This document shows positions 808-37,715 of a stretch of 38,634 bases of DNA, piece after piece. The translations under genes were made by a program, and so were the position numbers. Every line of letters begins with the position of its first letter. The stretch's first letter is position 1. Source of the stretch: a virus; the IMG/VR virus record IMGVR_UViG_3300035156_000362, positions 1 to 38,634 of that record; one strand, 5' to 3'. The notes under the pieces were generated by a model that ran no database searches, had not been told where the DNA came from, and was given only the letters and a program-made list of their open reading frames with translations.

Positions 808-2009
808 GCGCCCACGAGGTCGCGAAAGAGGATGGGCTGCACCGTGCCGTCCTGATTGACCTGGTCGAGCCAAGCTGCGGCGCTCGGCTCGTCGCCATCC
901 CACTTATTCGGGAAGGTGTGCGCGGCGATCAGCTCGCGGATGCGCGCCTCTTCCTCCCCGTTAATCAGGTCGACGCGCGCGCGACGCTGGATGTCGAGGA
1001 CCTGTACCAGCGCGATCGCGCGCGCTTCTAGCGTCAGCGGGCCCATTCGCTGCGGGTTCTTAGCGATGGAGCCATCCTTCAGCCGCTCAACGCCAGACTT
1101 GCGCAGCCGCTGGGCGGGCTCGCGCATCCAGCGGTAGAGCGGCTTCAGCTCCAGCAGCGGCGTGAGGTGCGTCCATGCCGGCATGGCGCAGATGACTTCG
1201 AGCGCAGTGTCCCGAGCTGCGAGTGGACAGCCGATGCAACCGGTGCGCGCGTTAATCTCGGTAGCGTCGTCACCGCCGTACGCATCCGCGAGGATGGCTG
1301 TCGGCCAGCCGCCGAACTCCGGCTGCGGCGCGTAGACCTTCAGCCAGTCCCAGACCGTGCAGACCCGCCAGTGGAGCAGCGGTGCGAGGGTGGCGATGCG
1401 GCCGCGGATGCCCTTGGCGTCCGGCAGGACCTGTTGGTACCAGCCCTGACCGCATTCGGCGCCGTCCTTCGAACAAGACATGGCGATCCGTCCGTCGCGG
1501 ACCGCGCTCTCGCCCTCTCGCACGCCGGTCAGCATCAGGGCGCTGCCGGGCAATGCCGCGATCGCTTCGCCCAGCGCCGCGGCCATGGGCTCGACCTTGA
1601 TCTGGCGGGTACACCAGCGGAGCGTGTTGTTATTGGGCGGCGGTACGCCGCGACCGAGGATGTAGACCATGAACCGCTTGTCGAGCGGAGCGGTGACGAC
1701 AACCACGCGGATCCAGTTGCGCGCGCGCAGCATGTTCATCATCAAATCGGCCGCGCGCTGGAGCGGCGGCAGCTCGAGCCGCGTGTCCGCGTAGAAAACA
1801 TAGAGCACTTCGGGCTGCGGCAGCTCGCCCGCGTCGATAAGGTGGACGAGCAGCGTCACCAGCGCAGTGCTGTCCTTGCCTCCCGACCACGCGAGGGCGA
1901 CGTGCTGATGCGCTGGCCAGTAGGCACGCAGCGAGGCGAGGGTCATCTCGACCATCTCCTCGTGGAGCATGCGCACGCCACGCGCGAATAGGTTGTCGAC
2001 GGCAGTCAT
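804..2009 (-). CDS. PAPS reductase / DndC-like ATP pyrophosphatase
   Basis: A 401-aa protein of the adenine nucleotide alpha-hydrolase (PAPS reductase, PF01507-like) family. The PP-loop SGGKDST is at residues 42-48, and a GVREGES segment near residues 162-168 matches the conserved G-x-R-x-x-(E/Q)-S element of DndC and CysH. Cysteines at 133 (in RWCTRQIK), 186, 217, 258 and 261 (CIGC) could ligate an Fe-S cluster, as DndC does; this is inferred. DndC activates substrate by adenylation for DNA phosphorothioation, but no dndA, dndD or dndE homologue is visible here. The gene overlaps the C5 methyltransferase stop (2006-2009) and is coupled to the downstream zinc-ribbon gene. Function in DNA, RNA or nucleotide modification is likely, but the substrate cannot be read from sequence. 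Confidence 0.85.
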   Translation of the reverse strand: MTAVDNLFARGVRMLHEEMVEMTLASLRAYWPAHQHVALAWSGGKDSTALVTLLVHLIDAGELPQPEVLYVFYADTRLELPPLQRAADLMMNMLRARNWIRVVVVTAPLDKRFMVYILGRGVPPPNNNTLRWCTRQIKVEPMAAALGEAIAALPGSALMLTGVREGESAVRDGRIAMSCSKDGAECGQGWYQQVLPDAKGIRGRIATLAPLLHWRVCTVWDWLKVYAPQPEFGGWPTAILADAYGGDDATEINARTGCIGCPLAARDTALEVICAMPAWTHLTPLLELKPLYRWMREPAQRLRKSGVERLKDGSIAKNPQRMGPLTLEARAIALVQVLDIQRRARVDLINGEEEARIRELIAAHTFPNKWDGDEPSAAAWLDQVNQDGTVQPILFRDLVGA

Positions 2010-3844
2010 GCCGCCACCTGCTCGGCCGCGATCGCGACGTTGGCGCGGACGAGGGCTTCGGCCATTTGCGGACAGACGCTGTTGCCGATCATCCTGATCT
2101 GCGCGGTTTTGGTCAGCGGCTCGCCGTTCGGGCCGGGCGCGTCGAGGATGTAGCTGTCGGGGAAGCCTTGGGCGCGGGCGAGCTCGCGCGGGGTGAGCAT
2201 CCGCATGCCGATGTCGACCAGCACGTAGGTCGCGGCCTCGATCGTCACGGTGACGACGGCAAACGTGTCCTTGCTCGAAAGCGTGTGGATCGGTGCGTCA
2301 AGAGCCTGCCCGACTGCGCCCGTTCCATAATACTTGATCAGGAAGGCGGCGGTGCGGGTGGCGCGCTCCATCAGTTCGGGCGGGAGCGCGTCGGCGGGGA
2401 CCATCGTCGTCTCGACCAGCCGCTGCGTCGTGCCGCGCCCGACGATCGTCGACAGCGGGCGCGTGGCGGGGTGGCCGACCATGCCGGTGTTCGCCTGCTC
2501 CATGTGCGCGCAGACGACGGCGTGATGCTGACCCTCGCTGGTGACTGTCTTGACCGGCTGGAGCGGGTCGCCCTGTCCGCCGTTCGTGTTCGAGGTGTAG
2601 AAGTGCGACAGGAAGCTGGTGACGACCGCAGCTGGCCCCCCGCTGGCTAGCACCGTGGGGGCTGGCTCCGCAGCGGAGGCGCCGGCAGAACGCGTCTTGA
2701 ACTTCTCCAAGTGGGCGGTGACGAGGCCGTGCTTGCCGCCGCCCGATACGACGGTGCGGGCGGGCTGGTCGAGGCCAGGGACGCGGGGCTCTTGCCCCGG
2801 CCGCTCGCCATAACCCATCATGATCAGTGTCGCGCTGGTTGCCGCCAGTTCGCCACGGCTGGCGGTGGTGACGGTGCGGAGCGGCTCGTCCGGGCTGTGT
2901 GTTCGCTCGCCGCCCGCGTGGGTGATGGGTACGATCGCGGCGTTGACGATCGCGGCGTCGGCCTTTGCGGTCTGCGTCGGCCACGGCACGTCGATCGATC
3001 GTTCCGGGCTCTGACCGCGCCTGCCGCCGACGCCGACGACGAACGGCCGCGCGGCGTTGACGACGTATCGCATCACCCCGTGCGCGATGCGGCGCTTGGT
3101 GGTGTCCTTCAGCTCGCGGGTGCGGGAGAAGATCGACGGGCAGGGGAGCGACCAGTCGATGATCTCGGCGGCGGTGCGCCACGGCAGGCGCTCGCCGCGC
3201 TCGACCTCGGCAGAGTCTCGCTTCCCGTGCGTGGGCGTCGGCCAGACGATCGGCAGGCCGTCGCGCCTGGCGATCAGGAACAGGCGTTTGCGGCTGGTGG
3301 GCGCGCCGAAGTCGCAGGCGCGCAGCTCGCGCCACTGGACGCGATAGCCCTGGCGCTTGAGCGCGCGGACCCACAGGTCGAAGGTCTCGCCGCGACGGTC
3401 GGGGCAGGGGCGGTGCTTGCCCTCCGCGTCCTGGACCAGCGGCCCCCACTGGCGAAACTCCTCGACGTTCTCGAGCATGATGATCGCGGGTGCGCCGCGG
3501 CCGTCCGGCGTCGCCTTGCGCAGCCGCTCCGCCCAGTGGACGACGATCCAGGCGAGGTCGCGGATGTTCTTCTCGACCGGCTTGCCGCCCTTCGCCTTGC
3601 TGTGGTGCTTGCAGTCGGGGGAGAACCAGGCGAGCGCGACCGGCGCGCCGCCCGTCGCCTCCAGCGGGTCGACCGCCATGATCGACTGGCAGAAGTGGCG
3701 GCTGGCGGGGTGGTTCGCGAGGTGCATCGCGACGGCCTCCGGATCGTGGTTGATCGCCACGTCGACCGCGCGGCCGAGCGCCGCCTCGATCCCGGTCGAC
3801 GCGCCACCACCGCCGGCGAAGTTGTCGATGACGAGGGGGGTCAC
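2006..3844 (-). CDS. Phage-type DNA cytosine-5 methyltransferase
   Basis: About 612 aa starting at a GTG (3842-3844) that overlaps the stop of the HD-domain gene. Motif I is FAGGGGASTG (residues 9-18). Motif IV is SPDC with catalytic C78 in place of the usual PPC, a variant I associate with phage enzymes. Motif VI is ENV at 125-127 and motif VIII is RKRLFLIAR at 185-193. The C-terminus carries the motif IX/X region (RELARAQGFP, then IRMIGNSV). The stretch between motifs VIII and IX is unusually long (about 300 aa) and contains several copies of a P-x-x-T-(V/I/L) unit followed by a G-rich turn and a Val pair. All catalytic parts are present, so it should methylate cytosine in DNA, perhaps for protection from host restriction. 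It lies in the leftward operon downstream of two repressor operators. Confidence 0.92.
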   Translation of the reverse strand: MTPLVIDNFAGGGGASTGIEAALGRAVDVAINHDPEAVAMHLANHPASRHFCQSIMAVDPLEATGGAPVALAWFSPDCKHHSKAKGGKPVEKNIRDLAWIVVHWAERLRKATPDGRGAPAIIMLENVEEFRQWGPLVQDAEGKHRPCPDRRGETFDLWVRALKRQGYRVQWRELRACDFGAPTSRKRLFLIARRDGLPIVWPTPTHGKRDSAEVERGERLPWRTAAEIIDWSLPCPSIFSRTRELKDTTKRRIAHGVMRYVVNAARPFVVGVGGRRGQSPERSIDVPWPTQTAKADAAIVNAAIVPITHAGGERTHSPDEPLRTVTTASRGELAATSATLIMMGYGERPGQEPRVPGLDQPARTVVSGGGKHGLVTAHLEKFKTRSAGASAAEPAPTVLASGGPAAVVTSFLSHFYTSNTNGGQGDPLQPVKTVTSEGQHHAVVCAHMEQANTGMVGHPATRPLSTIVGRGTTQRLVETTMVPADALPPELMERATRTAAFLIKYYGTGAVGQALDAPIHTLSSKDTFAVVTVTIEAATYVLVDIGMRMLTPRELARAQGFPDSYILDAPGPNGEPLTKTAQIRMIGNSVCPQMAEALVRANVAIAAEQVAA

Positions 3845-4435
3845 TGTTGCAGCTCCGAGAACCGGCGGAGGAACTGCTCCTTCGCCTCTCCCGGCCCCCA
3901 GCAGCGCAGATCGACGTGCACAGGCTCGACGCCCGCGAACAGCGGCCATTCGCCTTCGGGGCTCGGGGGCATCAGCGCGAAGCGTTCGGCCTGCAGCATC
4001 TGCAGGTCCGCGTTCTTGATCTCGGCAGCGTCGGTGCCCGCGACCCTGAAGCGGTACGCGATGGCTTGTTCGATGTTGCTCTCGACGATCTTGTAGGTGC
4101 CGAGCAGCGACTTGAGCGGCCGGGTGACGTCGCCGATGAACGCCTCCGCCGCATCGTGCATGAGAGCCGACAGGCTCAGGTGCTGCGGGACAAGGAAGCT
4201 TGCGTGCCAACTGTGCTCGGCCACCGAGTAGAACTCGCGGCACTGACCAGCGAAGCGGCAGGTGTTGGATAGCCCGTGAGCGATGTCCTCGATCGAGAAC
4301 TCGCTGTTGAACGGATCGAGCAGGTCGAAGTACGACCCCTGACTGGAGCAGGATCGTCGGACCCACGGCCGTCTTCACGCGTGGATCGTCACGCTGCCCG
4401 GCCATGGGCGGAAGCGGGTAAGCGGGGCCGCTCAT
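3841..4435 (-). CDS. HD-domain phosphohydrolase (YfbR-like), apparently frameshifted
   Basis: Two overlapping reading frames together make one recognisable protein. The first frame starts at ATG 4433-4435 (MSGPAYPLPPMAG) and reads to ILLQSG. The second frame reads SYFDLLDP, then EDIAHGLSNTCRFAGQCREF, then YSVAEHSWH, the HD pair ALMHDAAEAFIGD and a VTRPLK segment, ending at 3841. The order matches phage HD phosphohydrolases related to 5'-nucleotidase YfbR. The second frame meets a stop at 4375-4377 and has no ATG or TTG start, only a GTG at 4222-4224 inside the domain. The join needs a +1 shift in a run of four G (minus strand) near 4338-4341. A one-base insertion, an assembly error or programmed frameshifting would each explain it. 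The likely role is nucleotide metabolism during infection. Confidence 0.75.
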
Positions 4436-4641
4436 GGCCGTCCGCCCCACCAGGCGCCGCCCAGACCGACCACGACGACGAGAACGATCGCTGCGGTGCA
4501 GATTACCGCGAGCAGACCGTCGAGGTAGGCGTCTAGCCCTTCGTCGTCGGGCTCCGGCCGAAGCGGCAGGTTCTCCTCACGCGCGCGCCATCGTCCCAGC
4601 GTGGCTTGTAGATCGCGTGTCCCGCCCGAAGCTGGTGGCAA
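4432..4641 (-). CDS. Possible small membrane protein, start unclear
   Basis: A reading frame ending at 4432 encodes an acidic stretch followed by one strongly hydrophobic segment (AVICTAAIVLVVVVGLGG) and a short basic tail. Its stop overlaps the start of the HD-domain gene in an ATGA arrangement, which favours a real gene. No ATG or GTG lies close upstream; the nearest candidate I found is a TTG at 4639-4641, about 109 bases inside the thermonuclease gene. If real it would be a one-span membrane protein of 69 aa or less. I recognise no family, and the frame could simply be open by chance in GC-rich sequence. Confidence 0.27.
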   Translation of the reverse strand: MPPASGGTRDLQATLGRWRAREENLPLRPEPDDEGLDAYLDGLLAVICTAAIVLVVVVGLGGAWWGGRP

Positions 4642-4973
4642 GACAGGTCCGTGCCGTTCACGCTCACCATGGCCAGCGTCCTCCCGTATTGGTCGGTCCC
4701 GACCCTGCGGATCAGCGGGGAGCCCGAGCGCAGCAGCGCGGAGAGGCTCGCCTTTGCCGCCTGCGGGTTGCCCCGAGCGCAGGTCCGACCGCGTCGGCAG
4801 TGCCCCGGCATCTCCGGCGAATCGATCGCCAGCAAACGGATGCGCTCCGAACCGCAGCGGATCGTGTCGCCGTCCGTCGGGCGGCATTGGATCGTAGAAG
4901 CGGCCGCTTGCCGTGCTGGTGTCGCTCCAATCGTGGGCGATGTCGAAACGAGCAAAAGCAACAGCGTCAGCAT
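4533..4973 (-). CDS. Secreted thermonuclease (SNase-like)
   Basis: A 146-aa staphylococcal-nuclease-fold protein. The ATG at 4971-4973 has a good AAGGGAGAG ribosome site just upstream. An N-terminal hydrophobic run (LTLLLLLVST) looks like a signal peptide, so it probably acts in the periplasm or outside. Family landmarks in order are DGDT (34-37), R46, the IDSPE segment with E54, and DQYGR with R98, which correspond to the Ca-binding Asp residues and the Arg-Glu-Arg catalytic set of S. aureus nuclease. Several added Cys residues may form disulphides. It is the first gene of the leftward operon, about 120 bases downstream of the nearest repressor operator, so it should be silent in the lysogen and early in lytic growth. 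Degradation of extracellular or host DNA is inferred. Confidence 0.88.
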   Translation of the reverse strand: MLTLLLLLVSTSPTIGATPARQAAASTIQCRPTDGDTIRCGSERIRLLAIDSPEMPGHCRRGRTCARGNPQAAKASLSALLRSGSPLIRRVGTDQYGRTLAMVSVNGTDLSCHQLRAGHAIYKPRWDDGARVRRTCRFGRSPTTKG

Positions 4974-5089: not shown

Positions 5090-5119
5090 TTATTTCCATA
5101 TCGGAAAGTTACCCGTCAA
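5090..5119 (-). promoter_or_regulatory. Candidate leftward early promoter (pL-like)
   Basis: On the minus strand TTGACG (5114-5119) is a good -35 match lying between the two operator copies. The region 16-18 bases further on falls inside OL1 but has only a weak -10 match. Repressor bound at either operator would block polymerase. The position ahead of the thermonuclease operon supports the assignment; the -10 does not stand on its own. Confidence 0.4.
5093..5107. promoter_or_regulatory. Repressor operator OL1 (15-bp inverted repeat)
   Basis: TTTCCATATCGGAAA, arms TTTCC/GGAAA around a 5-bp centre. It matches the same 15-bp pattern found four more times around the immunity genes. It covers the expected -10 region of a leftward promoter whose -35 candidate is TTGACG. 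Confidence 0.7.
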
Positions 5120-5128
5120 GTATATTTG

Positions 5129-5143
5129 TTGCCATATCGGCAA
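5129..5143. promoter_or_regulatory. Repressor operator OL2 (15-bp inverted repeat)
   Basis: TTGCCATATCGGCAA, arms TTGCC/GGCAA. Its centre is 36 bases from the centre of OL1. It could also affect rightward transcription into the small gene that starts at 5211. Confidence 0.7.
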
Positions 5144-5210
5144 GTAGAAGCTGTCGCTTGATTTCTGTTCCTGCCTCGTTCCACCTTTGACCGACGGGAT
5201 GGAGTGAGTC

Positions 5211-5438
5211 GTGGGCGACACCATAGTGGCATATTGGTATCGGGCGCTGTGTTTCGGGCGTCCTGTCGGGCCGTGGCGGAGCTGCTCGAAGCAGGTGCAG
5301 GACGATCTAAGGGCCGAGGGGCTCGGCTCCGTTGACGAGCGGGGCCGGTTCTATGTGACCGTCCCCGGCGACATCGAGCGCCTGTCGGTTCCAATGAACT
5401 TCGAGGAGTGGGAAGCGAACGGGCGACGAGCTGCGTGA
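5211..5438 (+). CDS. Small protein beside the immunity repressor, unknown
   Basis: A 75-aa product from a GTG start with GGAG six bases upstream. I recognise no family; it has an aromatic N-terminus (IVAYWYRALCF), a central FYVTVPG strand and an acidic EEWE segment near the end. It sits between the left operator pair and the repressor gene, is transcribed towards the repressor, and stops three bases before the repressor's stop. Its start is 68 bases downstream of OL2, so the same repressor may control it. The location recalls accessory immunity genes in lambdoid phages (rex, antirepressors), but nothing in the sequence fixes a function. Confidence 0.55.
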   Translation: MGDTIVAYWYRALCFGRPVGPWRSCSKQVQDDLRAEGLGSVDERGRFYVTVPGDIERLSVPMNFEEWEANGRRAA

Positions 5439-5441
5439 CGC

Positions 5442-6017
5442 TCAGCGGGTTCTGTAGAGCGCGGTTACCCGACCGATGAGCGTGAACGGCTCTTCTCCAA
5501 TCGCGATCGGCTGGTGCACCGGGTTGGTGGACCTCGGCTCCAAGCGAGCCGGGTGTTCGGCGTACTGCTTGAAGGTGGTCTCGCCTGCCTGATTGATCAC
5601 GACGTAGAGCCGGCCAGGAAACAGCGCCTTGTCGTCGGGATCGACGACGACCCTGCCGCCTGAGGCGATCTCCAGATCCATCGAGTCTCCGTCAACTTCC
5701 AGCGCAAATGAGCGGGGCGGAGTCGAGGTGCGGTCCATCGCCATGTGACCTAACGGGCGCTGCACCTCCTCGCGCCAAGTGCCAGCGACGACTTGGCCGA
5801 TAACCGGGATCATGACCGTTGCCGTGCCCTCGACCTCCCCCGCCGGGTCGGCGAGCAATGCTTCCAGCTTCTTCATCTCGTGGTACTTGAAGGGGCGCGT
5901 GCCACCGGGCCCGAGCGATTTCGAAATGGTCACTGGGGTTACGCCGAGGGCATTCGCGAGGTCGACCTGCTGCAGCCCGCGTGCCTTCATCCGTGCCCTG
6001 ATCTCTTCCTTGTCCAT
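5442..6017 (-). CDS. LexA/CI-like phage repressor with peptidase S24 domain
   Basis: A 191-aa protein from the ATG at 6015-6017; the frame stays open further upstream, but this start gives the normal length and leaves the operators outside the gene. Residues 1-50 form an HTH (GLQQVDLANALGVTPVTISK). The C-terminal S24 domain has an Ala-Gly candidate cleavage site (A78-G79 in VVAGT), catalytic Ser112 in GDSMD and Lys150 in TTFKQY. The Ser-Lys dyad is intact, so RecA-stimulated self-cleavage and SOS induction are expected from the family. It is divergent from the Cro-like gene with three matching operators between them, which predicts autoregulation, and two more operators lie ahead of the leftward operon. 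This is the lysogeny switch. Confidence 0.93.
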   Translation of the reverse strand: MDKEEIRARMKARGLQQVDLANALGVTPVTISKSLGPGGTRPFKYHEMKKLEALLADPAGEVEGTATVMIPVIGQVVAGTWREEVQRPLGHMAMDRTSTPPRSFALEVDGDSMDLEIASGGRVVVDPDDKALFPGRLYVVINQAGETTFKQYAEHPARLEPRSTNPVHQPIAIGEEPFTLIGRVTALYRTR

Positions 6018-6039
6018 ATTTGGGACTTCAAACGGTCGC

Positions 6040-6054
6040 TTGCCAATATGGCAA
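6040..6054. promoter_or_regulatory. Repressor operator OR, repressor-proximal copy
   Basis: TTGCCAATATGGCAA, arms TTGCC/GGCAA. It is 22 bases upstream of the repressor start codon and directly abuts the next copy, so cooperative binding is plausible. Confidence 0.7.
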
Positions 6055-6069
6055 TTACCGATGCGGAAA
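6055..6069. promoter_or_regulatory. Repressor operator OR, middle copy
   Basis: TTACCGATGCGGAAA, the least symmetrical of the five copies. It starts at the base after the previous copy, so the pair is head to tail with no gap. Confidence 0.6.
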
Positions 6070-6088
6070 GATTTAGCTTGATTTGAGG

Positions 6089-6103
6089 TTTCCGTATCGG
6101 CAA
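6089..6103. promoter_or_regulatory. Repressor operator OR, cro-proximal copy
   Basis: TTTCCGTATCGGCAA. It ends ten bases before the Cro-like ATG and would overlap any rightward promoter, for example TTGATT at 6078-6083 with a weak -10 near 6101. The Cro-like gene shows no Shine-Dalgarno site, so its mRNA may be nearly leaderless. Confidence 0.65.
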
Positions 6104-6113
6104 CATTGCCGGA

Positions 6114-6443
6114 ATGGAACAGTTCGCCAACGCACTCATCGACGCGATGGGCGGCACCGTCGCGGTAGCCGAGCTCACCAATGCGCCGCCTTCGTCCGTC
6201 TCGCGGTGGCGGAAAGACCTGAGCGGCTCCCGCCTCAACCACCTCGTCCGAACCGCTCGCATGGAGCGCCCGGAGCTCGACCTGGGCGAGCTCGCCGATC
6301 GGCACGGGGTGGCCTTGCCGGAGGCGGTGGCGAGCGAGGGGGGCGAGGCTGATCATGTGCGCGAGCATGCGCGCGCGGAGGGGGATGGGTCACCCGGAAA
6401 CGCGGACGATCTTTCCGCCACGCCGGCGGAGATCGCAGCGTGA
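6114..6443 (+). CDS. Cro-like HTH regulator
   Basis: A 109-aa protein whose first 45 residues form a short HTH: TVAVAELTNAPPSSVSRWRK is a typical helix-turn-helix with Trp-Arg in the recognition helix. The rest is acidic and probably disordered. It is the first rightward gene, divergent from the S24 repressor across three operators, which is the position of cro in lambdoid phages. No clear ribosome site precedes ATG 6114; a second in-frame ATG at about 6147 would remove part of the HTH and is less likely. The stop overlaps the next GTG start. Role inferred: represses the repressor gene during lytic growth. Confidence 0.75.
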   Translation: MEQFANALIDAMGGTVAVAELTNAPPSSVSRWRKDLSGSRLNHLVRTARMERPELDLGELADRHGVALPEAVASEGGEADHVREHARAEGDGSPGNADDLSATPAEIAA

Positions 6444-6916
6444 GGGCGACGACGCCCGAGAAGCTCGCGCTCAAGCGCGCCACCGGGGAGATGATCCGCG
6501 GTGTCGGAGGGCTCGAGGCAGCGGCGGGGTTCTGCCGGGTCGGCAAGTCCGTGCTCGGCTGCAACCAGTCGCCCAACGAACCGGACAGCTTCGTCGCGCT
6601 TGACGTGCTGGCGGACCTCGAGCCGCTCGCCCGTGGTCGCGAAGGCTGGCCGCACGTCACCCGTGCGCTGGCGGCGCAGCAGGGCTTCGCGCTCGTCAAG
6701 CTGCCCGACGCGCTGCCGGAGGCGGGCGACCTGCTCCACCTGGTGGCGCGGCAGGCACGGGAGGGCGGCGCGATCGCCTCGGCGATCTGCGCGGCGCTGG
6801 CGGACGGCAAGGTCGATGCTGACGAAGCGCGGGCTGCGCGAAAGCAGGTCGCCGACCTGATCGACGTGGCGGTGGCGATGGATGCGGCGCTGGCCGCGAT
6901 CGAAGGGAAACGATGA
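6440..6916 (+). CDS. CII-like phage regulatory protein
   Basis: A 158-aa product from GTG 6440, coupled to the Cro-like gene. The N-terminal part (GGLEAAAGFCRVGKSVL, then a DVLADLEPLA segment) resembles the phage regulatory CII-type family found second in the early operon of many alphaproteobacterial prophages, with an HTH-like start. The C-terminal half is an Ala-rich helical region (DGKVDADEARAARKQVADLI) likely to oligomerise. Its place right after cro supports a role in the lysis-lysogeny decision or early gene activation. Assignment is from family feel and position rather than diagnostic residues. Confidence 0.6.
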   Translation: MRATTPEKLALKRATGEMIRGVGGLEAAAGFCRVGKSVLGCNQSPNEPDSFVALDVLADLEPLARGREGWPHVTRALAAQQGFALVKLPDALPEAGDLLHLVARQAREGGAIASAICAALADGKVDADEARAARKQVADLIDVAVAMDAALAAIEGKR

Positions 6917-7197: not shown

Positions 7198-7781
7198 GCG
7201 ACGAGCGCATCATCGACGAGGCGCCCGGCGTCGTCGCCAGTCCTGCGCGCCTGGAGGCGTGGGCGCGGACCGCGCGGGCAGGCGACCGGTTCGTGTATGC
7301 GACGCGCTGCTCGCTGCCCCCCGGCTCGGCCGGGGCGGCATGCGCGCGCATGCTGGCGGCGCGCGAGCTGGTGAACCTGGCGCGATACCGCGTGTGTCCC
7401 GAAGAGTTCGGCGACACGGGCGTGTTCTCGTACTTCGCCGAGCGGACCAGCCGCCCCTGGTCGGATGCTCCCGCCGCCGTCGCACGGCCGCCGCGGTCGG
7501 TGCTGTCGGCGCCGCGCCTCGTGGGAGAGGTGGACGAGGCACTGGAGTGGACGGCCGTGGACCGGGTGCTGCCGATCCTGTCGCGGGCGGCCCAGTTTCG
7601 CCGGCCGTGTCCGACCAACCATCGGCTGGCCGAGTTGGCGGAGCTGGACGTGGCGACGGTCGAGGCGTCGATCGGCGCGCTGAAGTCGCTGCACATCATC
7701 TCGATCGCTCATGTCTCCCCGCCCACGTACCGGCTGGTGACGATCGTCGCGACCGCCGCGCGCACGGGGCTTGCGGCATGA
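7194..7781 (+). CDS. Phage protein with winged-helix-like C-terminus
   Basis: A 195-aa product from GTG 7194 overlapping the previous stop. The N-terminal half has no recognised fold. The C-terminal half (TNHRLAELAELDVATVEASIGALKSL, then ISIAHVSPPTYRLV) reads as a winged helix, with two helices, a recognition helix and a beta wing. Such proteins in early operons are often replication or transcription accessory factors. It ends by overlapping the methylase-like gene by four bases. Function is not known. Confidence 0.65.
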   Translation: MSDERIIDEAPGVVASPARLEAWARTARAGDRFVYATRCSLPPGSAGAACARMLAARELVNLARYRVCPEEFGDTGVFSYFAERTSRPWSDAPAAVARPPRSVLSAPRLVGEVDEALEWTAVDRVLPILSRAAQFRRPCPTNHRLAELAELDVATVEASIGALKSLHIISIAHVSPPTYRLVTIVATAARTGLAA

Positions 7782-9004
7782 AGCGGCGGACCTTCGAACA
7801 GGTGCGGCGCGAGGAGATCGTGGCGGAGCGCGGCGGCATCCTCGGCCTGCGCCGCGAACGCGAGCGGCAGATCGATCGGATCGCGGCGCGCGGCAGGCTG
7901 ACGATCGAAGAGGCTTCGGCGGTGAAGAACGAGCTGCGCGCCTTTGCCGACATGATCGCGACCGGATTGTACCGCGAGGCTGCGGACCCGGTCGGGGTGC
8001 GCGCTACGCCGGAGCTGCTGCGGGTGCTGGAGCCGGGGCGCATCCTGGCGGTGCATGTCAAGGATCGCATCCGGCCGGGCGGGATGGACGGGCTGGGCTT
8101 CCAGACGGTGGACCCGTTCTCCGACGAGTGCGTGGCGCATTATCGCCGCCACGGTTTCGCCTTCCTGTCGCGGCGTACGATCGTCACCGACGTGGTGCGG
8201 GAGAACGCGCAGACCTATCGCCTCGGCTGGACCGAGCATTGCAAGGATGGGAGCCGCCAGGGCGGCGGGATGCCCGAATATCTGCTGGTGTTCAGGAAGC
8301 CGCAGACGGACCGCGCGCGCGGCTATGCCGACCGCCCGGTCGTCAAGCCGAAGCCGCTGGTTGATCTGGAGGACGGCCGGATCGTCGACTGGGACGATGC
8401 GCGGGTGCGCAACTACAAGGCACGGCTGGTGGCGAACAGCGGCTATTCGCCGTCGCGCTGGCAGAACGACGCCAGCGGGTTCTGGCGATCGTCGGGGAAC
8501 CGGGTGCTGACGCCCGCCGATCTGGAGGGGCTGCCGCATGACGGCATCTATCAGCTGTTTCGCGGCTGGTCGTTCGCGAACGTTCACGAGCACGAGCATC
8601 ACGTCGCGCTGACCGAGTCGATGGAGCGTCGTCAGGCGCTCCCCACCGACTTCGCGCTGCTGCCGGCGCAGAGCTGGCATCCGGAGGTGTGGACGGACGT
8701 GGCGCGGATGCTGGGCGCGAACACGCTGCAGGCGGCGAAGGGCCGCGAGCAGCATCTGTGCCCGCTGCCGTTCGACATCGTCGACCGCGCGATCGGGCTG
8801 TGGAGCGAGCCGGGCGAGCTGGTCTACGATCCGTTCGGTGGGCTGATGACGGTGCCGATGCGGGCGGTGAAGCTCGGCCGGCGCGGCGCGGCAAGCGAGC
8901 TCAACCCGGGCTATTTCGCGGACGGGGTGCGGCTGCTGCGCGAGCAAGATGCTGGCAGGGCGACCGGGAGCCTGTTCGATCTGCTCGACCAGGTGGCGGC
9001 GTGA
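7778..9004 (+). CDS. DNA methylase-like protein lacking the DPPY motif
   Basis: A 408-aa protein from ATG 7778 related to beta-class N4/N6 DNA methyltransferases of phages. The C-terminal SAM-binding motif I is clear (YDPFGGLMTVPMRAVKLGRRG, then ELNPGYF), and the family segments LAVHVKD, TIVTDVVREN, RLGWTE and GMPEYLLVFRKP follow in order before it. The N-terminal part that should hold the catalytic (D/S)PP(Y/F) motif IV is absent; a 65-residue basic coiled-coil-like stretch stands in its place. No DPPY, DPPW, SPPY or SPPF occurs anywhere. It may be inactive, a DNA-binding relic or the partner of a separate catalytic chain. It is coupled to the genes on both sides. Confidence 0.8.
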   Translation: MKRRTFEQVRREEIVAERGGILGLRRERERQIDRIAARGRLTIEEASAVKNELRAFADMIATGLYREAADPVGVRATPELLRVLEPGRILAVHVKDRIRPGGMDGLGFQTVDPFSDECVAHYRRHGFAFLSRRTIVTDVVRENAQTYRLGWTEHCKDGSRQGGGMPEYLLVFRKPQTDRARGYADRPVVKPKPLVDLEDGRIVDWDDARVRNYKARLVANSGYSPSRWQNDASGFWRSSGNRVLTPADLEGLPHDGIYQLFRGWSFANVHEHEHHVALTESMERRQALPTDFALLPAQSWHPEVWTDVARMLGANTLQAAKGREQHLCPLPFDIVDRAIGLWSEPGELVYDPFGGLMTVPMRAVKLGRRGAASELNPGYFADGVRLLREQDAGRATGSLFDLLDQVAA

Positions 9005-36890: not shown

Positions 36891-37715
36891 GTGGTCCCCC
36901 CGGTCCGCTGCGCGATCTACACACGCAAGAGCCATGACGAGCGCGCCGACGCGCAGCTCGGATCGATCGAGCGCCAGCGTGAACTGTGCGAGGCCTATGT
37001 CGCCAGCCAGGCCGGCGGCGGGTGGGCCGCGCTGCCGGATCGCTTTGACGATCCCGGCCGGTCGGGCGGCTCGCTTGAGCGCCCGGCGTTGCAGCGGCTG
37101 CTCGAGGCGGTCGACGCAGGGATGGTCGACGCGATCGTGGTCTACAAATACGACCGCATGTCGCGCTCGCTCGCCGATTTCGTCGGGGTGTTGCAGCGGC
37201 TCGATCGCGCCGGAGTTTCGTTCGCGTCGGTCACCCAGCCGATCTCCACCGCTGACAGCGCGGGTCGGCTGATGCTCAACATCCTGCTGTCTTTCGCACA
37301 GTTCGAGCGCGACCTCACCGGCGAGCGCGCACGCGATTGGAAGGCGGGTGCGCGGGCGCGGGGCATGTGGACCAGCGGCCCGCCTCCGTTCGGCTACCGG
37401 CTGGAGGCCGGGCGACTGGTGATCGATGCCGAACAGGCCGAGGTGGTGCGCTGGCTTTACCGTCGCATCCAGGCCGACACGGTGTTCACGCCCCTGGCGC
37501 GCGAGATGAACGCGCGTGGCTTCCGCAACCGCAAGGGTGGGTCGTTCAATGGCCGGCTGGTGAAGGCGATCCTGTCCAGTCGCACCTATCGCGGCGAGAT
37601 CCCGCACGACGGCGGATTCATGCCTGGGCGACATGCGGCGATCGTCAGCGAGCGACAGTGGCGGCGGGTACAGGAGAAACTTGCGGCGCTCGGCATCAAG
37701 CCACACCGCTGGTGA
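36891..37715 (+). CDS. Short serine recombinase (site-specific integrase)
   Basis: A 274-aa serine recombinase from GTG 36891. The resolvase domain has CAIYTRKSHDE with catalytic Ser14, DDPGRSGGSLERPALQRLL, YKYDRMSRS (88-93) and FERDLTGER. A recombinase domain follows (PPFGYRLEAGRLVIDAEQAEVVRWLYRR, then NGRLVKAILSSRTYRGEI). It stops there, without the zinc ribbon and coiled coil of large serine integrases, which are usually 450 aa or more. It could be a natural short form or a truncated one. It is the only integrase seen. Confidence 0.9.
   Translation: MVPPVRCAIYTRKSHDERADAQLGSIERQRELCEAYVASQAGGGWAALPDRFDDPGRSGGSLERPALQRLLEAVDAGMVDAIVVYKYDRMSRSLADFVGVLQRLDRAGVSFASVTQPISTADSAGRLMLNILLSFAQFERDLTGERARDWKAGARARGMWTSGPPPFGYRLEAGRLVIDAEQAEVVRWLYRRIQADTVFTPLAREMNARGFRNRKGGSFNGRLVKAILSSRTYRGEIPHDGGFMPGRHAAIVSERQWRRVQEKLAALGIKPHRW

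Follow-up and report, generated by a model that had tools for sequence, protein, structure and literature searches.

A predicted lambda-type repressor switch on five 15-bp operators, with a putatively SOS-controlled small gene inside the immunity region

Described immunity switches and the locus in the window

The lambda phage immunity switch contains six 17-bp operators, three on each side, and its OR sites are spaced by about 23–24 bp, the centres of OR1 and OR2 lying about 24 bp apart. A smaller set of five operators is described for the immB region of the phiKO2 and N15 phages, with three OR sites between the repressor and cro genes and two sites at OL (PMC4997575). These sites are 16 bp in length (T-A-N10-T-A), are recognized by CB repressors lacking a cleavage motif, and at OL control repA; in the phiKO2 phage, Cro binds only one site, whereas the repressor binds all five with high affinity (PMC4997575). 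Antirepressors under LexA control are also known, as seen in GfoA/GftA of the Gifsy phages, Tum of the 186 phage, and AntC of the N15 phage, those of the Gifsy phages being located outside the immunity region and serving a non-cleavable repressor (PMC3121763). In the 434 phage, RecA-driven induction is affected by Hex, a small protein whose gene lies against that of the repressor and shares its transcript from PRM (PMC3564112).

The window analyzed here is a stand-alone IMG/VR virus record (the whole stretch of 38,634 bases, 68% GC). Given that it encodes HK97-type head genes and a serine recombinase, the record probably represents a temperate tailed phage, and its relatives point to Sphingomonadaceae-type hosts. 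The serine recombinase (nt. 36891–37715, + strand) displays Resolvase and Recombinase domains and is a probable integrase.

The original prediction had proposed a lambda-like OL/OR scheme for this DNA, and both the gene order and the positions of the sites fit that scheme: one operator family occurs at OL and OR, the repressor gene lies between them, and a cro-like gene lies past OR, an arrangement conserved in relatives. The first leftward gene encodes an SNase-type nuclease (nt. 4533–4973, − strand; PF00565, 4.9e-7). It is followed in the leftward operon by a C5-cytosine methylase (nt. 2006–4450 from the first possible start, − strand; PF00145, 1e-24), which is paired with a PAPS-reductase-like protein (nt. 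804–2009, − strand); a role for this pair in DNA modification or anti-restriction is possible. The S24 (LexA/CI-type) repressor comprises 191 a.a (nt. 5442–6017, − strand; Pfam S24, 1.3e-17; HTH_3, 3.6e-5; PHROG 4 repressor, 1.8e-27). Rightward, the first gene encodes a cro-like small DNA-binding protein (nt. 6114–6443, + strand; PHROG 8008 DNA-binding, 1.2e-4), which matches P22_Cro only weakly (E 0.085), and the next encodes a CII-like regulator (nt. 6440–6916, + strand; PF06892, 2.6e-8; PHROG 101, 5.8e-19). Further downstream, an ORF at nt. 7259–9004 (+ strand) displays an N6/N4 methylase domain, along with a strong PHROG 16 match (2.8e-62) labeled as DNA helicase.

Like lambda phage, the locus pairs an S24/CI-type repressor bearing the Ala-Gly, Ser, and Lys features with a CII-like gene downstream, and its operators lie ahead of the leftward operon and between the repressor and cro genes. 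It differs in the number and length of the sites (five of 15 bp), in the presence of a −35 element between paired sites, in the OR spacing (15 and 34 bp), and in the convergent gene behind a LexA box, where lambda phage has rex. Neither three operators per side nor the lambda spacing was found; with 3 + 2 sites at steps of 15/34 and 36 bp, the locus would work like the lambda switch in a layout that is not that of lambda. The division into three OR and two OL sites is shared with the phiKO2/N15 immB region, from which the locus departs in the length and sequence of the sites, the cleavage motif of the repressor, and the operon controlled from OL. As with the LexA-controlled antirepressors, a small phage gene would be under LexA and act in SOS induction, although in contrast to the Gifsy genes it lies inside the immunity region, beside an intact cleavage site; as with Hex, a small protein is encoded against the repressor gene, although here convergently and behind a LexA box. 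As judged from sequence, the locus is a known kind of lambda-type switch, in a variant where a small gene, putatively under SOS control, lies within the immunity region. No prior account of this combination, of a rigid operator frame across a large family, or of the small protein family emerged from the open-access literature searched.

Five predicted operators and their frame in related loci

All five 15-bp near-palindromes of the original prediction were found at the coordinates claimed for them: OL1 (TTTCCATATCGGAAA, nt. 5093–5107), OL2 (TTGCCATATCGGCAA, nt. 5129–5143; 36 bp from OL1), OR3 (TTGCCAATATGGCAA, nt. 6040–6054; adjoining the repressor start), OR2 (TTACCGATGCGGAAA, nt. 6055–6069; abutting OR3 in a 15 bp register), and OR1 (TTTCCGTATCGGCAA, nt. 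6089–6103; 34 bp from OR2). The pattern proposed for them, TTKCC-N5-GGMAA, holds exactly for four sites, with OR2 instead reading TTACC-N5-GGAAA (A for K). Four exact matches in the window compare to 0.06 expected, with none of 100 dinucleotide shuffles reaching four. The pattern TTDCC-R-N3-Y-GGHAA, composed with the sites already known, picks exactly the five operators at zero mismatches. Using a matrix built from the five operators, we noted scores of 19.8–24.8 bits for the operators themselves, followed by 13.1 bits at nt. 6106–6120 and then 11.4 bits; an equal scatter of operator-like sites elsewhere, which would have spoken against the proposed scheme, is thus not seen in the window. The 13.1-bit candidate, overlapping the cro start, was considered as a sixth operator and rejected, as its position is not conserved in relatives. 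The view that the five palindromes are chance or low-complexity repeats could draw on the pattern with two mismatches allowed, which is not over-represented in the window (40 matches versus 33.8 by chance); however, this view is already refuted by the excess of exact matches and by the conservation of the positions in relatives, and we give it practically no credence.

Homologous S24 repressors were collected from Sphingomonadales genomes and IMG/VR, and a template search returned 69 loci, or 56 once identical N-termini were removed; loci of another architecture (26/34 spacing, e.g., L139, L222, and L231) were excluded from the main counts. With a template that has the 15/34 spacing built in, all 56 non-redundant loci displayed three palindromes between the repressor and cro genes at steps of 15 and 34 (33–35) bp, the OR1–OR2 step being 34 bp in 43 loci and 33 or 35 bp in the remaining 13. 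An OL pair is present in 54/56 loci, with the sites 31–36 bp apart.

The weight is carried by two analyses free of a built-in spacing. Firstly, a spacing-free discovery of palindrome families in the homologous loci recovered the same site positions with other sequences; the three OR sites, again at steps of 15 and 34 bp, mostly begin 20–23 bases from the repressor start, and the two OL sites lie ~300 bp past the end of the repressor gene, ~35 bp apart. Secondly, distances between paired near-perfect palindromes (n = 56 loci) peaked at 49, 15, and 34 bp in the OR interval (25, 17, and 16 loci, respectively, versus 0.15–0.25 when shuffled) and at 35 bp in the OL interval (18 loci versus 0.4), these peaks being roughly 45 to 125 times those of the shuffles. 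The repressors behind this shared geometry fall into 25 clusters at 70% identity and reach a minimum pairwise identity of 0.31, so that geometry is conserved to a much greater degree than operator sequence. Across related loci, the five positions stay the same and the palindrome sequence changes along with the repressor. It is chiefly for this reason that we read the five sites as the operators of a lambda-type repressor switch, at a probability of about 85%, the binding itself being predicted from sequence.

Searches at the nucleotide level for close relatives, within the family and among phages, returned short gene-sized matches only. When viral contigs were scanned for a single exact 15-mer, the matches were mostly due to chance, and no locus had at least three sites together. 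One locus that looked promising in that scan (L081) was rejected, its sites lying within apparent coding sequence.

By resemblance to the consensus, we placed the −35 element of PL at nt. 5114–5119 (TTGACG, leftward) and that of PR at nt. 6078–6083 (TTGATT, + strand), with the putative PR −10 element at nt. 6101–6106; the −10 elements of both promoters are poor matches. OL1, the position of which is conserved in relatives, lies in or overlaps the putative PL −10 element and spacer, OL2 lies upstream of the putative PL −35 element, and OR1 overlaps the putative PR −10 element. In relatives, GTCAA (TTGAC leftward) occurs between both OL sites in 46/54 loci, and TTG[CAT] occurs between OR2 and OR1 in 56/56 loci, with a distance of 12 bp to the OR1 core in 46 of them, so that each 34–36 bp pair brackets a −35-like element.

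Under the proposed mechanism, dimers of the S24 repressor would bind all five 15-bp operators. OL1/OL2 (36 bp) and OR1/OR2 (34 bp) would be of equal design, each bracketing the −35 element of an early promoter, with OL1 and OR1 blocking RNA polymerase between the −35 and −10 elements and OL2 and OR2 sitting just upstream. Joint binding would shut both PL (the SNase and methylase operon) and PR (cro, cII, and replication). We infer that the 34 bp step is one helical turn beyond that of lambda phage, which would keep the dimers on a similar face of the DNA, and the spacing suggests cooperativity. OR3, abutting OR2 at the repressor start, is likely the PRM/autoregulation site and probably also serves Cro.

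Predicted repressor cleavage and operator specificity

The repressor sequence displays the features of a self-cleaving protein (Ala78-Gly79, Ser112, and Lys150), which align with the VQAG, GNSM, and FTFKK motifs of lambda CI; the alignment with lambda CI and LexA spans both the cleavage site and the dyad. Across a 12-sequence alignment, neither Ser112 nor Lys150 varies, and Ala78 is nearly invariant. Consistent with this, the structural model (pLDDT 88.3) matches LexA and the C-terminal domain of the lambda repressor, with VIA Z scores of 13.8 to LexA (3k2z) and 12.7 to the lambda fragment (2hnf). Given the Ser/Lys dyad and the Ala-Gly site, RecA-stimulated self-cleavage of the repressor upon DNA damage is predicted.

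The operator half-sites vary by clade (TGCGAT, TGCCAT, TCCGAT, TACGAT, and TGCTAT) around a T-x-C-y-A-T core, in which T1 (0.98) and C3 (0.99) are nearly invariant and x and y are clade-dependent. The y position is C in the window and its closest relatives, L166–L178, which use TGCCR. Residue 30 of the repressor accounts for 80% of the variance at half-site position 4 (y; eta2 0.80), with G found where this residue is Lys, His, or Tyr, mostly C or T where it is Ala or Thr, and a mixture for Gln. At half-site position 2 (x), residue 33 (K33) is the top-ranked repressor column, with Leu occurring with A. The helix-turn-helix (HTH) helices span residues 17–24 and 28–35, and residues 30 and 33 both fall in the latter, the recognition helix. 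However, one locus (L196) has Ala30 yet G at position 4, and in the C-terminal domain, far from the DNA, several columns that mark clades score equally high. Given this exception and the confounding influence of phylogeny, the residue–operator association is suggestive and does not amount to a proven code. These loci form a natural experiment in operator evolution, where dozens of repressors share one geometry and use many operator sequences; immunity specificity should therefore be predictable from sequence, which is testable by helix swaps.

The same association bears on whether the five sites mainly serve the Cro-like protein or some other regulator in place of the S24 repressor. The cro-like gene adjoins the sites, and in lambda phage CI and Cro share the same sites; however, the operator changes follow the recognition helix and clade of the repressor, and the OL pair is on the far side of the repressor gene from cro. 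We therefore consider it very unlikely that Cro or another regulator is the main user of the sites, and retain the S24 repressor in this role.

The LexA box and the convergent small gene

While the first reading of this interval as a lambda-type switch is supported, it overlooked two conserved parts that lie between OL and the repressor gene, namely a LexA (SOS) box and a small gene convergent with the latter. The box (GTTCCTGCCTCGTTC, nt. 5167–5181, + strand) lies 24 bp from OL2 and corresponds to GTTC-N7-GTTC, the alphaproteobacterial (Caulobacter) LexA consensus (PMC12700426), of which it is the sole + strand copy in the window. In relatives, an exact box occurs 36–49 bp right of the OL2 core start in 47/54 loci (versus 0.016 loci expected), and at exactly 38 bp in 28 loci. 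An extra TGCGAT palindrome was noted 29 bp right of OL2 in the L001/L132 and L142 loci (Novosphingobium); the LexA box is farther off in L132 (94), and an exact box was not found in L142.

The box precedes a small phage gene, a mark of LexA-controlled phage antirepressors that is seen here by sequence. This gene, a 75 a.a ORF (nt. 5211–5438, + strand), has a homologue in 56/56 loci and 84 in all by profile search, always convergent with the repressor gene and usually with its stop codon overlapping the repressor 3′ end. A pN/pS of 0.19 over 19 independent close pairs indicates purifying selection. The family gave no sequence match in Pfam, NCBIfam, or the PDB and nothing significant against PHROG, where two stray weak matches arose in single members. 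In a fold search, the AF2 model (pLDDT 85.7) likewise matched nothing in the PDB (best VIA Z 2.3), and the best viral hit reached E 0.02; function is thus not assignable by fold, and the missing match is no demonstration of a new fold.

From its position and apparent regulation, we propose that the small gene encodes an SOS-induced lysogeny modulator, a candidate function for members of a family missing from the reference libraries searched. The LexA box near OL2 would control the gene and so form a second DNA-damage input, and together with the putatively cleavable repressor this means that SOS would act twice, cleaving the repressor and turning on the small gene. The protein could act on the repressor, comparable to Tum and the Gifsy antirepressors (PMC3121763), or its transcription could interfere with the repressor message; we put about even odds on the gene helping to lower repressor activity through the protein, antisense transcription, or both. 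Given its place beside OL2, the gene may be repressed by the S24 repressor as well, forming a double lock.

A serious rival is that the small gene is SOS cargo (e.g., related to RecA, cell division, or host defence) and no regulator of lysogeny, since relatives outside repressor loci also look SOS-controlled. These distant homologues, including L275, L277, and L282–L285 (mostly downstream of LexA-type boxes), occur in a few genomes, and 6/8 such loci display a LexA-type box 68–532 bp upstream. In three of them (L283, L284, and L285), the small ORF seems to share an operon with a small protein recognized by eye as YozE-like. Against a cargo role stand the invariable convergence with the repressor gene in phages, usually with overlap, and the occurrence of the small ORF across two operator architectures. 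We regard cargo as a substantial possibility, at well under even odds. Alternatively, the protein could oppose repressor cleavage and delay induction, as Hex, encoded beside its own repressor in the 434 phage, blocks RecA-stimulated cleavage (PMC3564112). However, Hex is made in lysogens, whereas the small gene, apparently under LexA, would be made only after damage, rendering a Hex-like brake unlikely.

Returning to the proposed modulator, a broader reading, which we hold tentatively and at slightly less than even odds, is that of a widespread alphaproteobacterial phage immunity module that packs two SOS inputs into one kilobase. In this reading, a repressor capable of self-cleavage sits on a rigid 15/34/35-bp frame, a LexA-driven, unnamed small protein family, encoded convergently, acts on the repressor or its transcription, and specificity diversifies via a few helix-3 residues with the frame unchanged. 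The small gene behind the LexA box allows a direct test of the reason for a second DNA-damage switch in a phage whose repressor would cleave itself.

Related repressors in seven loci (L139, L222, L224, L231, L232, L242, and L245) use a second operator frame (26 and 32–34 bp, with a TTACGA half-site). These loci keep the small ORF, with LexA-type boxes in most, in either orientation. Among the distant homologues, L277 carries the small ORF as a tandem pair.
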